Assembly (NCBI RefSeq): GCF_000337495.1
Contig: NZ_AOIS01000054.1
Span: 129,532 to 181,298, forward strand
Length of the DNA stretch: 51,767 nt
Direction: 5' to 3'
Source: Haloterrigena salina JCM 13891
GTDB taxonomy: Archaea; Halobacteriota; Halobacteria; Halobacteriales; Natrialbaceae
Numbering within the stretch: the stretch's first letter is position 1; each line of letters starts with the position of its first letter. The notes beneath the pieces were generated by a model that worked only from the letters and a program-made list of their open reading frames with translations, did not search any database and was not told the DNA's origin. Below, piece after piece: positions 6,484-36,305 of the stretch. A program made the position numbers and the translations under genes.

Positions 6484-6515
6484 GGACGGAGACACACCAC
6501 CCATTCATTCGTTAT
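6484..6515 (+). repeat. ORB-like repeat, origin 1, left arm
   Basis: Core GACACACCACCCATTCATTC. It is the left member of a near-perfect inverted pair with 6761-6792 that flanks the A/T-rich region. Confidence 0.75.
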
Positions 6516-6549
6516 CACTCGAAAACCGGCCTAATCATCGAACCCCACC

Positions 6550-6567
6550 CACCACCAATTCAAACGT
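6550..6567 (+). repeat. ORB-like repeat, origin 1, internal copy 1
   Basis: CACCACCAATTCAAACGT. Same orientation as the left arm; shares ACCACC-ATTCAAACGT with the copies at 6642 and 8142. Confidence 0.7.
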
Positions 6568-6639
6568 AATACGGAAGAGCAGAGTGACTATCTGCCATTT
6601 TGCCCTCTTTTCTCCTCGATGGATAGCCTAGTCGAATAA

Positions 6640-6660
6640 CATACCACCAATTCAAACGTT
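6640..6660 (+). repeat. ORB-like repeat, origin 1, internal copy 2
   Basis: Core TACCACCAATTCAAACGTT. Same orientation as the copy at 6550 and 90 bp from it. Confidence 0.7.
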
Positions 6661-6760: not shown

Positions 6761-6792
6761 AACGATTGAATGGGTGGTGTGTCTCTGTCCTC
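6761..6792 (-). repeat. ORB-like repeat, origin 1, right arm
   Basis: Core ATTGAATGGGTGGTGTGTCT, the inverse of the element at 6484-6515. It lies immediately upstream of the orc promoter, so Orc1/Cdc6 binding here could also control its own gene. Confidence 0.75.
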
Positions 6793-6868
6793 AATCGACA
6801 GTAACGAATGAACCGTTTGCAACGTTCGAACCAATTGTTTTATTGGGCAGTAAAATAGCTAACATATA

Positions 6869-8107
6869 ATGACGCTCTTCGAGCGGTCCGAAGCTATTTT
6901 CGAGGATGAAAACGTCTTGCACGACGATTATCAGCCCGAATCGCTCGAGGAACGCGACGACGAAATCGAGCAATACACCGCGTACCTACAGCCTGTCATC
7001 AACGGTTCACAGCCTCGAAATATTTTCCTCTACGGGAAGACTGGTGTCGGCAAGACAGCGGCGACGAAATATCTTCTTCACCATCTCGAGGAGGACGCAA
7101 AACAGTACGATGACCTCTCAGTCACCACTGTCTATCTCAACTGCGAGGATCTGACTAGTAGCTATCGCGTGGCCGTTGCACTCGTCAATACCTTACGGGA
7201 TCCGTCTGATCAAATCAGTCGAACTGGGTATCCGTTGAACGCGGTCTACGAAAAGCTGTGGACGGAACTCGACCGAATCGGTGGGACGATTTTGATCGTT
7301 TTAGACGAAGTCGATTACATTGGCGACGACGATTCGATCCTCTATCAACTTCCGCGTGCTCGCAGTAACGAGAAAATAGAACGCGCTCGAATCGGGATTA
7401 TCGGGATCAGCAACGATTTCAAATATCGAGAGAAACTCGATCCGCGCGTCGAAGACACGCTGTGTGAACGCGAACTACACTTCCCGCCATATGACGCGAA
7501 CGAACTCCAGAACATTCTCGAACGACGTGCAACGTTAGCGTTCAAAGACGGCATTCTCGAGGAAGATGTTGTTCCGTTGTGTGCAGCGTTTGCCGCGCAA
7601 GATAAGGGAAGTGCCCGTCAAGGACTTGACCTCCTTCTCGAGGCGGGTGATCTAGCCCGTCGACGAAACGATTCTATCGTTACAGAAGATCACGTTCGCG
7701 AGGCGAAACAGTTGCTGGAAAAGCAGCGGATCGAAGAGAGCATGAAAGAGTTGACCTCTCACGGACATCTCACACTCTTGGCTGTAGTCGCATCGACGAT
7801 TGCGGAACCGTCTGAAGCGCCATTTCAAAAGCAACGACTTTACGAACAGTATACCGATCTCGCGGTCGCGACCGACCGTGATCCTCTCGGCGGCAGGGCG
7901 TTTCATAATCACTTAGCCGAACTCTCGATGCTCGGGATTCTCGATCGAACGAAGCGTAACGAAGGCAGGAGTGGTGGGATATACTACGAATATCAGGTCG
8001 ATGTTTCGATCGATGGTGCGCTTTCGACACTGGACAATTTGCATTTGAGCGGTAGTCTGAACCTCGACTCACTCTGGGAAACCGCGGAGGAACAGGGGCT
8101 CGTGTAA
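6869..8107 (+). CDS. orc: Orc1/Cdc6 replication initiator (origin 1)
   Basis: A 412-residue AAA+ initiator that binds ORB elements and opens the origin. The Walker A motif is LYGKTGVGKTAATKYLL (near residue 55), Walker B is ILIVLDEVDYIGDDDSIL, and sensor-type sequence GIIGISNDFKYREKLDPRV follows. The lid region has RQGLDLLLEAGDLARRR. The C-terminal winged-helix domain (about residues 290-400) includes FHNHLAELSMLGILDRTKRNEG. Its length is normal for the family. The ATG sits about 25 nt after TTTTATTG, so the transcript is probably leaderless. ORB copies flank it on both sides. It resembles the initiator at 34190-35407 in Walker B context and overall plan, but its repeats differ. Confidence 0.95.
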   Translation: MTLFERSEAIFEDENVLHDDYQPESLEERDDEIEQYTAYLQPVINGSQPRNIFLYGKTGVGKTAATKYLLHHLEEDAKQYDDLSVTTVYLNCEDLTSSYRVAVALVNTLRDPSDQISRTGYPLNAVYEKLWTELDRIGGTILIVLDEVDYIGDDDSILYQLPRARSNEKIERARIGIIGISNDFKYREKLDPRVEDTLCERELHFPPYDANELQNILERRATLAFKDGILEEDVVPLCAAFAAQDKGSARQGLDLLLEAGDLARRRNDSIVTEDHVREAKQLLEKQRIEESMKELTSHGHLTLLAVVASTIAEPSEAPFQKQRLYEQYTDLAVATDRDPLGGRAFHNHLAELSMLGILDRTKRNEGRSGGIYYEYQVDVSIDGALSTLDNLHLSGSLNLDSLWETAEEQGLV

Positions 8108-8133: not shown

Positions 8134-8160
8134 ACCACACACCACCCATTCAAACGTTTC
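8134..8160 (+). repeat. ORB-like repeat downstream of orc, origin 1
   Basis: Core CACACCACCCATTCAAACGT, 27 bp after the orc stop codon and in the same orientation as the left arm at 6484. An ORB just beyond the orc 3' end is also seen at origin 2. Confidence 0.75.
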
Positions 8161-11836: not shown

Positions 11837-12508
11837 TTAGAACGAATTTAAATTATTGCGAAGAATTCTACGGAATGGGGAAATAATAGATTTGACAATC
11901 CACAACCCGAAGAGAACAACGGGAGTAACCATCCCCCACTTCGGGGGAATCGCTCGGTACTGATCGTTGATTTTCTCTATCTGATTCTTGCTTTCTAAGT
12001 AGTTGAGTGCAGCCTGAACGCGTGACTCTGTAAGATCCAACTCGGAGGCAAGCGTCGTAATTGACTGTGGTTCGGGGCTTTTCCGAAGGTGCTGATATAC
12101 CCTATTCAGTAATTGGAGGCGGAGCATCGCTTCTTCCCTCTCTGCTGTTGCTACATAGGAGTCTACTGCTGTGGATGTCCCATATTGATGAATTGTAATT
12201 CCATCTAGAAGAAACCAAAGACCAACAACTCCGAATATCCCTCCTATTAGACCTAAGTTGGATAATATAAAAATCATCATTACTGCTATAAGCGTTATAC
12301 CAAAAATCACTCTCTTAGTACCTCTAGAAATATCTGATATATATCCTACAAAATCTATAAGGATAACTCCGATAAGCACCGTAGCAATAGATAATATTTC
12401 AATAGTATTCATATAGGTAAAGTTACTTGTAAATAGAACCATCCCACTCAGGGCGATGATCCCTTGTAATACCTTATTTTTCCAGGCTTCCTCAAAGGGA
12501 TGGATCAT
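11837..12508 (-). CDS. Membrane protein with cytoplasmic winged-helix domain, partner of the halocin-like gene
   Basis: 223 residues. Four hydrophobic segments cover about residues 15-33, 36-56, 65-83 and 84-105. A soluble region follows with a winged helix: MLRLQLLNRVYQHLRKSPEP, then TTLASELDLTESRVQAALNY and EKINDQYRAIPP. A last hydrophobic segment is at about 193-212. It could be a membrane-bound regulator or the self-protection protein for the adjacent halocin-like product; neither is shown. The codon use is AT-rich like its neighbour. It lies 88 bp downstream of the halocin-like gene on the same strand, but AATTTTATTATTG about 29 nt before its ATG suggests its own leaderless promoter as well. 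Confidence 0.7.
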   Translation of the reverse strand: MIHPFEEAWKNKVLQGIIALSGMVLFTSNFTYMNTIEILSIATVLIGVILIDFVGYISDISRGTKRVIFGITLIAVMMIFILSNLGLIGGIFGVVGLWFLLDGITIHQYGTSTAVDSYVATAEREEAMLRLQLLNRVYQHLRKSPEPQSITTLASELDLTESRVQAALNYLESKNQIEKINDQYRAIPPKWGMVTPVVLFGLWIVKSIISPFRRILRNNLNSF

Positions 12509-12596
12509 AACTTGATATTCGCTACTTCCAATAATAAAATTTTCCCCTGCTACGCAACATAAATGGCCCAGAACTAAAACAAGTGGGCCAATATAT

Positions 12597-13571
12597 CTAA
12601 CAGTCGAATGCTAAGTCACAGACAACTCCAGAAGATGATACACATACCGTTACTCCGCCTACGGTTGTAACTTGCTCACAAAACACAGCACAAGCACCTG
12701 ATAGATAGGGGAAAGACGAAGCAAGTGGAACACATCTGCTTAGACAACCCCAGAATCCGAGCTGATTTGCGCCACCACAGATTGCGCTAAGTGCACTCGG
12801 ACAAAAGCTACAAACTAAGTCCCAGAATCCGTCACTTGCATCTGCAACTGTAACCCGCCTACCGTTGAAATCTCTATAGCTGTTGATTACTTCTTGATCA
12901 ACATCTAGCTTTTCTCGTGATACTGCTTTACTTATGCTTGGAGTTTGACTTTTTATACTCGGAAGCGCATTCTGGTTGACTTCTTTTCTTCCAAGTTCTG
13001 TTGGTTGTGGCTCATATTTTGGTGTTGTTTCTTGGTTTATCGAATCGTCATTTTCAAATCCGAATGCTGTTGCAGTAAGGGAATTAGATTCCGACCCGGA
13101 AGAACTGAATATTATACCAGCGGCAGTAATCGGTTTTCGCTCTCCTTCAATGGTCCCGGTCATTGCAATTATTGTCCCGGTTCCATCAAGGCCTGATTCA
13201 GATAATCCTCTTTTCGTTCCTATAGCAATCGGTGTAATTGCTAAATCATAGGGATCTAAATCTTCATCTCCAGTTTCAATTGAATAGGACAGTGGCATTT
13301 CAATAGTCACTGCCCCGCTTTCATTGTGGATGTAGGATTCCAGATCCTGAATAGCTTGGTCCTGTTTGACCGCCCTCATATCTATCTCAGCATCATAGGC
13401 GGTCTTCATACTGATATCGGGGGATGTGTTCTCTTCAACTGGAGCAGCTGCTACAGAACCACTACTTGCAAGACTGAGAGATGAAACCCCTGTGGCGCTA
13501 CCCAGTGTTGCAAGTACTTTGCGTCGGTTCACCTCTTCCGAACTGCGTGTGTTTCTTGCCACAATATACAC
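12597..13571 (-). CDS. Halocin C8-like precursor: Tat signal, long leader, 10-cysteine C-terminal peptide
   Basis: 324 residues with the architecture of the halocin C8 precursor. A Tat signal (NRRKVLATLG, Arg16-Arg17, hydrophobic SLSLASSGSVAAA) is followed by an acidic domain of about 200 residues. Residues 1-250 contain no cysteine. The last 79 residues contain ten: CSFC near 254-257, then singles ending in VCDLAFDC. Halocin C8 is likewise a stable ten-cysteine peptide released from a Tat-exported precursor whose N-terminal part gives immunity. The mature region is about 12600-12836. The start is GTG at 13571 or GTG at 13562. A/T-rich boxes lie 25-30 nt upstream. The region is much richer in A+T than its flanks, suggesting recent transfer. 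The cleavage site is not predicted. Confidence 0.8.
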   Translation of the reverse strand: MYIVARNTRSSEEVNRRKVLATLGSATGVSSLSLASSGSVAAAPVEENTSPDISMKTAYDAEIDMRAVKQDQAIQDLESYIHNESGAVTIEMPLSYSIETGDEDLDPYDLAITPIAIGTKRGLSESGLDGTGTIIAMTGTIEGERKPITAAGIIFSSSGSESNSLTATAFGFENDDSINQETTPKYEPQPTELGRKEVNQNALPSIKSQTPSISKAVSREKLDVDQEVINSYRDFNGRRVTVADASDGFWDLVCSFCPSALSAICGGANQLGFWGCLSRCVPLASSFPYLSGACAVFCEQVTTVGGVTVCVSSSGVVCDLAFDC

Positions 13572-14035
13572 TAACGAATAACAGTATGAAAATTTAACTA
13601 ATATATCTATATTTTAATTGGTCTTTATATTAAAAATGACGTGGGGCCGGCTACCCGACTGGACTCGTTTCGATGGCCCGACTGACAGCGAACAGGCTGT
13701 CGTACCGGCCCGTCGAACTGTCTTCGAGAGTTCCTAACAGCACTGATCGATCTTGCATCCTCAACGATCTAACGGTCCTCGTCTTGGGCGGCTACACCGA
13801 CCAGATCACCCGATTTCCGCTGCCGGAACGTACGCCGAGAAGTTCACCGGTACGACAACTTCACTCTTTTTGCCGTGTTTGAGCGGGCCCTCGACCTTGA
13901 TAGCTCGGTCGTCTGAATCATGGTTGATCGCGGAAGCATGGCAAGTCACGCGGCGACCGTTCGTCCGGTGATCGCCGCTGCCGATCCGACCGGTTGAACC
14001 TCACCATTAACTGAGATGGTAATGAGGTGACGAGC
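13572..14035. other. Intergenic region with one possible small gene
   Basis: About 460 bp between the halocin-like gene and the UspA gene. The left 70 bp is A/T-rich and holds the halocin-like promoter. The remainder returns to high G+C. Only one protein-like frame is seen (13806-13949, minus strand), listed separately with low confidence. Confidence 0.5.
13806..13949 (-). CDS. Possible 47-residue protein of unknown function
   Basis: A GTG-started frame of 47 residues containing INHDSDDRAIKVEGPLKHGK and VVVPVNFSAYVPAAEIG. The composition (acidic start, Lys-rich centre, alternating hydrophobics) is more protein-like than other frames here, but there is no clear ribosome-binding site and no recognised family. 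It could equally be a remnant of a longer gene or a chance frame. Codon use is mixed. Confidence 0.2.
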   Translation of the reverse strand: MTCHASAINHDSDDRAIKVEGPLKHGKKSEVVVPVNFSAYVPAAEIG

Positions 14036-34155: not shown

Positions 34156-34187
34156 AGACCCCCTCCCCACCATGTCCAGTGTCTTAG
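34156..34187 (-). repeat. ORB-like repeat at the 3' end of orc, origin 2
   Basis: CCCCACCATGTCCAGTGTC on the plus strand, the inverse of the tandem units at 36121. It begins just beyond the stop codon of the Orc1/Cdc6 gene, mirroring the position of the ORB at 8134-8160 in origin 1. Confidence 0.75.
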
Positions 34188-34189
34188 CG

Positions 34190-35407
34190 TCATCCGGTTT
34201 GATCGATGCGTTTCTGGATCGCTTCCGTCACCCCTACCATATCAACCGTCTCCTCAAGCGCTTCAAGTAATAGATCGGAATTCGTATCGAGTGAATATTC
34301 ATAATATCGACCACCAGCTTCGCCTTTGTTTCGCTCGATTCGACTCGCGATTCCTAACATTGCGAGTTCACCGAGGTGGTCCCGCATTCGACGTGGGACC
34401 AGCGGATCAATCGCGGCACGATCACAGACGAGTTCGTACCGGTCTTGAATATCACGTGCTCTAATGGGAGTTTTTCGCTCCTCATGAAGCATTAAAAGCG
34501 CATATAGAACGAGATGCCCCTGTTGAGTGAGTCCAGTGACACCATCAACAATCCGGCTTCGTTCGAGTGCTTTCCGAGCCTCGTCAACGTGTACTTCGGT
34601 AACTCGCTCCGCATCTTGTTGGACGGCGATATCGCCTGCTTCCATAAGCAGATCAAGACTCTGACGGGCATCGCCAGCATCTTTCGCACCAAACGCAGCA
34701 CACTTCGCAATCACTTCTCGTGGAACGATACTATCGTAAAAGGCAATTTCAGCACGTTGTCGAAGAATAGCACGAAGCTCGTTTGCATTGTAAGCCGGAA
34801 ACTGCAGTTCTTTTTCGCAGAGGCTTGACTGAACCTTCGAACTCAATCCCTCTCGGTACTTGAAGTCGTTCGAAATACCGATGATACCGACTTTCGATTC
34901 CTCAAGGTTATCGTTTGCTCGAGCGCGAGGGATCTGATATAGGATAGAATCGTCTTCGATGTGATCGACTTCATCGAAAACGATAATTATCGTTCCACCC
35001 ACTCCATCGAGTTCGTCCCAGAGCCACTCGTTGACCTGCCATTGCGGATATCCGGTTGGTTTCAACTGCTCATCTTGAGAACGAAATTTGTTTATCAATT
35101 GAATTGCAACCTGATAGCTCGTATTTAAGTCCTCACAGTTCAGTTGGACAGTCGTAAGTTCGACATCGTATTCTGCCGCATCTGACTCGAGCTCACCTAA
35201 CAGATAGCGAGTACAGGCCGTTTTGCCAACGCCAGCTTTTCCGTAGAGAAATATGTTTGCGGGTTGATCGCCATTGATCACCGGCTGGAGTGCAGAAATA
35301 TACCGCTGTAGTTCCTCATCTCGCCCAACGATTTCCCTGGGTTGGTAATCCTCACGGAGGACATCTCGTTGGCGGAAAATCTCCGTATCTGGTTGGAATA
35401 TTCCCAT
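34190..35407 (-). CDS. orc: Orc1/Cdc6 replication initiator (origin 2)
   Basis: A 405-residue AAA+ initiator, starting MGIFQPDTEIFRQRDVLRED at 35407 with an A/T-rich ATTATTTGAAT box about 30 nt upstream, so probably leaderless. Walker A is LYGKAGVGKTACTRYLL (near residue 56), Walker B is GTIIIVFDEVDHIEDDSILY, and GIIGISNDFKYREGLSSKVQ contains sensor sequence. The lid has ARQSLDLLMEAGDIAVQQ. The C-terminal winged helix (MRDHLGELAMLGIASRIERN) is complete. ORB copies lie on both sides, two of them just upstream of its promoter, suggesting autoregulation. It and the origin-1 initiator share the same layout. Confidence 0.95.
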   Translation of the reverse strand: MGIFQPDTEIFRQRDVLREDYQPREIVGRDEELQRYISALQPVINGDQPANIFLYGKAGVGKTACTRYLLGELESDAAEYDVELTTVQLNCEDLNTSYQVAIQLINKFRSQDEQLKPTGYPQWQVNEWLWDELDGVGGTIIIVFDEVDHIEDDSILYQIPRARANDNLEESKVGIIGISNDFKYREGLSSKVQSSLCEKELQFPAYNANELRAILRQRAEIAFYDSIVPREVIAKCAAFGAKDAGDARQSLDLLMEAGDIAVQQDAERVTEVHVDEARKALERSRIVDGVTGLTQQGHLVLYALLMLHEERKTPIRARDIQDRYELVCDRAAIDPLVPRRMRDHLGELAMLGIASRIERNKGEAGGRYYEYSLDTNSDLLLEALEETVDMVGVTEAIQKRIDQTG

Positions 35408-35441
35408 TGATATTATTAGTGTACTTCTATTCAAATAATAC

Positions 35442-35470
35442 CATCGTGTCCAGTGAGTCCAGTGTCTGCT
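35442..35470 (-). repeat. ORB-like repeat, origin 2, promoter-proximal copy
   Basis: Contains GTCCAGTGAGTCCAGTGTCT, a doubled form of the GTCCAGTGTCT core. It overlaps the region just upstream of the TATA-like box of the orc gene. Confidence 0.65.
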
Positions 35471-35487
35471 ATAGAACACGGATCACC

Positions 35488-35513
35488 CACCCTACTATGT
35501 CCAGTGTCTTCGT
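35488..35513 (-). repeat. ORB-like repeat, origin 2, second upstream copy
   Basis: CACCCTACTATGTCCAGTGT, matching the inverse of the 29-bp tandem unit. Confidence 0.7.
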
Positions 35514-35617: not shown

Positions 35618-35859
35618 CACCCCACCTTTCCGCTCTATAATCAGCAGAAAGTCCTCCTATTGCCATTGCTGGGGACAGCCACTGACTTGCAAAGAACAAC
35701 TCTTCCTAATACCGGAATATATCACCTACACCAATAAATATATTCTATAATGGTCGGTCCTTGTAGCGTCTTCGAAGCAAACAACGCTGTAAGTACCAGA
35801 TCGCTCTGTGTGCGTTCCTAAGCGTCCCTTGTGGCTCTATAGAGCGGAAAGGTGGGGTG
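35618..35859. repeat. 22-bp inverted repeat bracketing the A/T-rich core
   Basis: The left arm (35618-35639) contains CCCCACCTTTCCGCTCTATA and the right arm (35838-35859) contains TATAGAGCGGAAAGGTGGGG. The arms match over 22 bases, about 200 bp apart. It may be a second ORB class, a hairpin, or the ends of a small mobile element. Confidence 0.8.
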
Positions 35860-36075: not shown

Positions 36076-36120
36076 CAACTTTCTAAGTACGACCAACGAA
36101 TGCTCACCCGTCTTTCGGAA

Positions 36121-36232
36121 GACACTGGACATGGTGGGGTGGGAGAGAAGACACTGGACATGGTGGGGTGGGAGAGAAGACACTGGACATGGTGGGGTGG
36201 GAGAGAAGACACTGGACATAGTGGGGTCTCTC
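36121..36232 (+). repeat. 29-bp tandem ORB array, origin 2
   Basis: Units start at 36121, 36150, 36179 and 36208. Each begins GACACTGGACAT, followed by GGTGGGGTGGGAGAGAA. The first three are identical over the core; the fourth is diverged after the first 15 bases (CATAGTGGGGTCTC). Exact periodicity of 29 bp places successive Orc sites at about 2.8 helical turns. Confidence 0.9.
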
Positions 36233-36278
36233 TATAATCTAAAGTTCCTGACACAAATCGGCGACCAAACCATCAAAA

Positions 36279-36305
36279 GACACTGGATACACTGGGGTGG
36301 GTCAG
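36279..36305 (+). repeat. ORB-like repeat, origin 2, outlying copy
   Basis: Core GACACTGGATACACTGGGG, followed by TGGGTC. A diverged copy of the tandem unit in the same orientation, 71 bp beyond the last unit. Confidence 0.7.

Follow-up and report, generated by a model that had tools for sequence, protein, structure and literature searches.

Candidate Orc operators fused to the TATA box, and ORBs beside the stop codon, at two haloarchaeal orc loci

The closest described system is the oriC2-cdc6E region of Haloarcula hispanica. In the excerpted text of Wu 2014 (PMC3936714), the region downstream of cdc6E (oriC2D) acts negatively on oriC2 and has no origin activity alone; when a plasmid carried two downstream ORBs, the level was intermediate. 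Titration was proposed, and downstream ORBs were noted at many other origins. The portion of Wu 2012 (PMC3528665) available to us lists genes with ORBs in both flanks, names Nmag_3611 among the genes with downstream ORBs, and reports ARS activity for the oriP-cdc6K origin of pHH400. At oriC4-cdc6G, as far as the available part of the source goes, loss of the cdc6 promoter accompanies loss of ARS activity. Among bacterial replicons, plasmids P1 and F have a layout similar to that of Vibrio cholerae chromosome 2. There, according to the accessible sections on RctB (PMC6090056), the initiator has binding sites in the promoter of its own gene and is titrated by further sites, with repression and handcuffing both tested.

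We analyzed a 51,767-nucleotide stretch of Haloterrigena salina JCM 13891 (the window; contig positions 129532-181298) from a genome assembled into 71 contigs totalling 4.84 Mb. The window contains two orc genes, orcA on the plus strand and orcB on the minus strand, both with AAA+ and winged-helix parts. Pfam domains were Cdc6_lid (3.1e-27) and Cdc6_C (1.7e-16) in OrcA, and Cdc6_lid (1.1e-22) and Cdc6_C (1.7e-21) in OrcB; solved structures of relatives are 2qby and 2v1u. OrcA is identical to a protein on the Haloterrigena salifodinae plasmid pHTS171. OrcA and OrcB share 52% identity, which makes their gene families related despite the differing ORB sequences; the initial annotation had called the two ORB families unrelated. 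A genome search placed four orc genes on the 181-kb contig and 17 orc matches in the whole genome; the orc located about 6 kb before the window (L004) has a stop codon within the matched stretch. Most of the window has a GC content of 0.6-0.7, apart from positions 12001-14000 (0.42 and 0.48). The features of the two loci are as follows.

6490..6512, minus strand: ORB-A upstream of orcA
6545..6567, minus strand: ORB-A upstream of orcA
6637..6659, minus strand: ORB-A upstream of orcA
6761..6782, plus strand: upstream ORB-A, its core ending 55 bp before the TATA-like box
6803..6837, plus strand: promoter array of ORB-A half-sites on a 9-bp register, with TGG reading TTG
6838..6844, plus strand: TATA-like box of orcA, 31 bp from the ATG
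6869..8107, plus strand: orcA, Orc1/Cdc6 initiator gene (412 aa; Pfam)
8135..8157, minus strand: putative 3' ORB-A, 27 bp past the orcA stop, in opposite orientation to the gene
34161..34185, minus strand: putative 3' ORB-B, 4 bp past the orcB stop, in the same direction as the gene
34190..35407, minus strand: orcB, Orc1/Cdc6 initiator gene (ATG at 35407, 405 aa; Pfam)
35432..35440, minus strand: TATA-like box of orcB, adjoining the TGG directly, 33 bp from the ATG
35441..35470, minus strand: promoter array of two ORB-B half-sites 9 bp apart, with TGG at the end
35485..35510, minus strand: upstream ORB-B near the promoter
36119..36301, plus strand: upstream ORB-B array, four tandem copies every 29 bp and a weaker fifth, inverted relative to the other ORB-B copies

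As in an oriC2/oriC2D-type module, orc is preceded at both loci by inverted ORBs having a G-rich end and followed by one ORB of the same type. The ORB-A pattern with up to three mismatches gave five matches in the 4.84-Mb assembly, all in locus A, and the reversed-pattern control gave none. The ORB-B pattern gave six matches with at most one mismatch, all six in locus B, and nine with up to three, seven of them in locus B; the reversed-pattern control gave two. These locus-specific matches bear out the claim that ORBs flank orc at both loci by more than chance, with the 3' copies lying, as described, within tens of bases of the stop codon. That the ORBs occupy the same positions in the two families was only roughly correct: the 3' copies differ in distance and orientation. 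The origin of orcB also contains a perfect 22-bp inverted repeat (35618-35639 and 35838-35859), whose G-rich core has no other copy in the genome at up to two mismatches. A G-rich inverted repeat enhances oriC1 in Haloarcula hispanica, and the repeat of the orcB origin recalls that element or, alternatively, an ORB of another Orc.

Like oriC2-cdc6E, both window loci combine an orc/cdc6 gene with ORBs in both flanks, the downstream ones just past the gene. They differ in having one 3' ORB each, compared to 11 ORBs in the 722 bp of oriC2D, and in carrying a promoter array, which the excerpted text of Wu 2014 (PMC3936714) does not mention for oriC2-cdc6E. The oriP-cdc6K origin resembles locus B in its Orc (62% identical to OrcB), its kind of ORB, its TATA-fused 9-bp half-sites and its downstream ORBs: in cdc6K of pHH400, three 9-bp half-sites abut TTTTAT, and a set of three ORBs begins directly after the stop. 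It differs in the number of downstream ORBs (three), in its more extensive upstream array and in half-sites of diverged sequence. In Sulfolobus islandicus, the Orc1 paralog Orc1-2 binds the promoter of its own gene, as we propose for the window Orcs; according to the accessible text, however, it is not an initiator but a regulator of the damage response, and its recognition motif is a hexanucleotide, not ORB-derived repeats (PMC9738581). The bacterial RctB system likewise has initiator sites in its own promoter together with titrating sites; its repression and handcuffing have been tested (PMC6090056, in part), whereas the window loci are known from their site pattern. That pattern includes the repeated half-sites in the initiator's own promoter that characterize iteron replicons. 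The Pfam matches of the window initiators include Cdc6/Orc and AAA families and no Rep family, and by analogy the window modules are best described as working like iteron replicons of the RctB, P1 and F type without being members of that group.

Alignment of the promoters revealed that the local ORB's half-sites recur in 9-bp steps; after the last of them come TGG and, immediately adjoining, the TATA box. The element reads GACACTGGACT CACTGGACACGATGG TATTATTTG at orcB of the window, AACGAATGA ACCGTTTGC AACGTTCGAACCAATTG TTTTATT at orcA, where TTG replaces TGG, and AACA GCGGACACT CCGGACACGGTGG TTTTATAAA in relatives of 60% identity. The spacing from half-site to TGG is the same as in the full ORB, both in B (GGAC, 4 bp, TGG) and in orcA relatives such as L070 (AACGATTG, 6 bp, TGG); the last unit therefore looks like an ORB whose G-string tail has turned into the TATA box. 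The initial annotation had placed ORBs over both promoters. In locus B, 35441-35470 abuts the TATA box. In locus A the placement was wrong: the core of the ORB at 6761-6792 ends 55 bp short of the TATA-like box, and the abutting element is a different array (6803-6837).

From this layout we propose, with a probability of roughly 0.6, that Orc represses its own promoter at the TATA-fused half-sites and that the extra ORBs titrate Orc. Each locus would be a self-contained replicator-initiator module made up of inverted upstream ORBs, orc and at least one ORB just downstream. Orc would bind the tandem 9-bp half-sites, the last being an ORB with the TATA box in place of the G-string tail, and promoter-bound Orc would block the basal factors TBP and TFB and so repress orc. 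The downstream ORBs and the extra upstream arrays would also bind Orc, leaving less free Orc for the origin. Autorepression had been suggested by the initial annotation and gains indirect support from the TATA-fused half-sites, an element absent from that annotation; for the 3' copy, the titration model already in print (Wu 2014, PMC3936714) is the better explanation.

The 9-bp register was assessed by self-matching of promoters, in loci that include those in which the pattern was first spotted; this applies both to the family values and to the subcluster test. The lag-9 self-match was 0.458 across 43 orcB-family loci and 0.524 across 17 orcA-family loci (the latter including L073 and two duplicate-protein rows); shuffled sequences gave about 0.25, and the upstream and coding controls 0.27-0.29. 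Since these loci are related, the test was repeated on 15 subclusters of an 88-gene clade. Lag 9 exceeded the mean of the other lags in 14 of the 15 (p=6e-5), ranking first in 11, second in one and lower in the others. It was also the top lag in 20 of 30 clade survey loci (1.8 expected by chance), a count made after the element had been seen, and in 5 of 85 orcs outside the clade. The survey loci came from the best-scoring matches listed, 110 being used (30 supplied and 80 hand-picked). Start codons of oriC1-type genes were unreliable in the survey, which affects part of the 85-gene comparison group, and the promoter values of these genes therefore say little.

The strict TGG-TATA fusion was present in 64 of 88 clade loci compared to 1 of the 85 other orcs. 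Among the window's 32 ORFs of 250 aa or more, one also has it, and this ORF may be orcB itself. Half-sites just upstream of a TATA box could also bring in Orc as an activator of its own gene, forming a positive loop, and archaeal activators can act from that position. In those 64 loci, however, the TATA box begins exactly where the ORB would have its G-string, and this gapless overlap favors exclusion over activation; the tested bacterial analogues also repress (PMC6090056, in part). We regard the positive loop as unlikely. An equally unlikely reading is that the promoter array and the 3' ORBs are mere parts of a spread-out origin that loads Orc and MCM, in keeping with the ORB motif common to all the sites and their location within 1.5 kb of the origin. 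In clade loci the TGG-TATA boundary lies anywhere between 30 and 46 bp from the ATG; the array is thus positioned relative to the TATA box, not to the ATG, and it is not locked to the origin either. The negative action of oriC2D and its lack of origin activity on its own, in the excerpts of Wu 2014 (PMC3936714), also argue against the spread-out origin.

Directly observed here are the sites, where they lie, how conserved they are and how closely they resemble the cognate ORB. The promoter half-sites matched the origin of their own locus best in 8 of 29 representatives, a count that speaks against the autorepression reading, but the mean excess over other origins was positive (p=1.3e-5). A conserved orc type represented by nine loci (L007, L143, L145, L146, L148, L150, L152, L192 and L193, 94-100% identical to L007) had no 9-bp array in its promoters on inspection; the L007-type orc is possibly not an origin initiator. 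In the parts of the open-access literature consulted, we found no account of ORB half-sites in a haloarchaeal orc promoter or of Orc autoregulation there. The word 'promoter' is absent from the main text of Wu 2012 (PMC3528665), and in Wu 2014 (PMC3936714) it occurs once, about dnaA. The 3' ORB is already known as a class, and the promoter element is one for which we found no published description.

We searched 125 genomes of the family with each Orc protein. At E<=1e-150, orcB had a match in 40 genomes, and orcA had a match in 16, the source genome included in both counts. The orcB family comprised 43 loci (the window gene, 41 others and one Haladaptatus plasmid), and 36 of these had an ORB core with at most one mismatch within 100 bp of the stop. 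Among the seven that did not (L033, L050, L075, L076, L078, L082 and L086), three had an ORB core farther downstream. In the orcA family an ORB lay 30-33 bp past the stop in 7 of 14 loci and was absent there from the other seven. The initial annotation took an absence of 3' ORBs beside orc in other genomes as its refutation; such ORBs do recur, on this scale. Cores with at most one mismatch also occurred inside the gene in 8 of the 43 loci. All eight have a core at offset 1163, close to the 3' end, and L037 has another. In the close orcB subcluster the downstream ORBs were often tandem, up to six, mostly 40-60 bp apart. Pairwise identity there was 74% in ORBs compared to 34% outside, and ORB identity exceeded flank identity in 111 of 120 pairs, which, with the recurrence of 3' ORBs, lends good support to the conserved function that had been suggested.

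A motif-free test looked for likeness between the 200 bp following the stop and the upstream region of the same gene. It was passed by 64 of 87 clade loci and failed by 23; with the window genome's other orcs added, 69 of 94 passed, compared to 6 of 93 in the far-downstream control. Outside the clade, 38 of 85 orcs passed, with 12 of 255 coding controls, and the L012-type orcs passed in 18 of 19 cases. These counts take in any repeat: L033 passes with its nearest ORB core at +303, and L068 passes without a downstream ORB-A. The downstream block was most like the gene's own origin in 12 of 17 representatives. Five duplicate-protein rows were dropped from the survey, and two interrupted orcA genes were excluded from later counts: L073, which has a stop codon inside the orcA relative, and L074, whose matching Natronorubrum bangense entry has an annotated IS5-family transposase at that place. 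In ~790 bp past the stop of the pNMAG02 orc, which may correspond to Nmag_3611, we saw no ORB-A. The convergent orcs L031 and L085 belong to different subclusters, and their shared intergenic region holds two ORB types, each lying next to the stop of the orc in whose family it is used. We also considered compensation, in which a larger upstream array would go with fewer 3' ORBs. The window orcB fits this idea, but the orcA family does not, L068 having three upstream ORBs and none downstream, and compensation was rejected.

Orc bound at sites on both ends of the gene could pair and, by looping, as the initial annotation had suggested, or by handcuffing, silence either orc or the origin; iteron replicons use handcuffing (PMC6090056, in part). 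Neither spacing nor orientation between the two ends is fixed, however, and some members keep the promoter array without 3' ORBs, which makes such pairing improbable. The variable presence of 3' ORBs in the orcA family might suggest functionless remnants or chance matches, a very improbable reading, as the whole-genome pattern counts rule out chance and the ORB-versus-flank identities rule out inheritance without selection for the orcB subcluster.

Against autorepression with titration stand the single 3' ORB of each window locus, which implies a small titration capacity, and the missing 3' ORBs (7 of 14 in the orcA family; 23 of 87 in the clade by the motif-free test). For the window loci themselves, we infer from the DNA sequence that Orc binds at the promoter, represses orc and is titrated. 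The chances seem to us about even that a large haloarchaeal Orc clade shares one operator, consisting of two to four ORB half-sites in a 9-bp register with the last fused to the TATA box, on which Orc would assemble as a head-to-tail multimer that senses its own concentration. Such a multimer would contrast with the single ORBs of the origin. Together with downstream titration, the operator would turn the module into a self-limiting replicon, an archaeal counterpart of the copy-number control exerted by iterons.

By analogy with some bacterial plasmid initiators, the results suggest an initiator that limits both its own production and its own availability. This bears on how haloarchaea balance many origins and megaplasmids. 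If the proposal is true, every such module would have built-in copy-number control through an operator made of its own ORB half-sites, and incompatibility between modules would be predictable from sequence.
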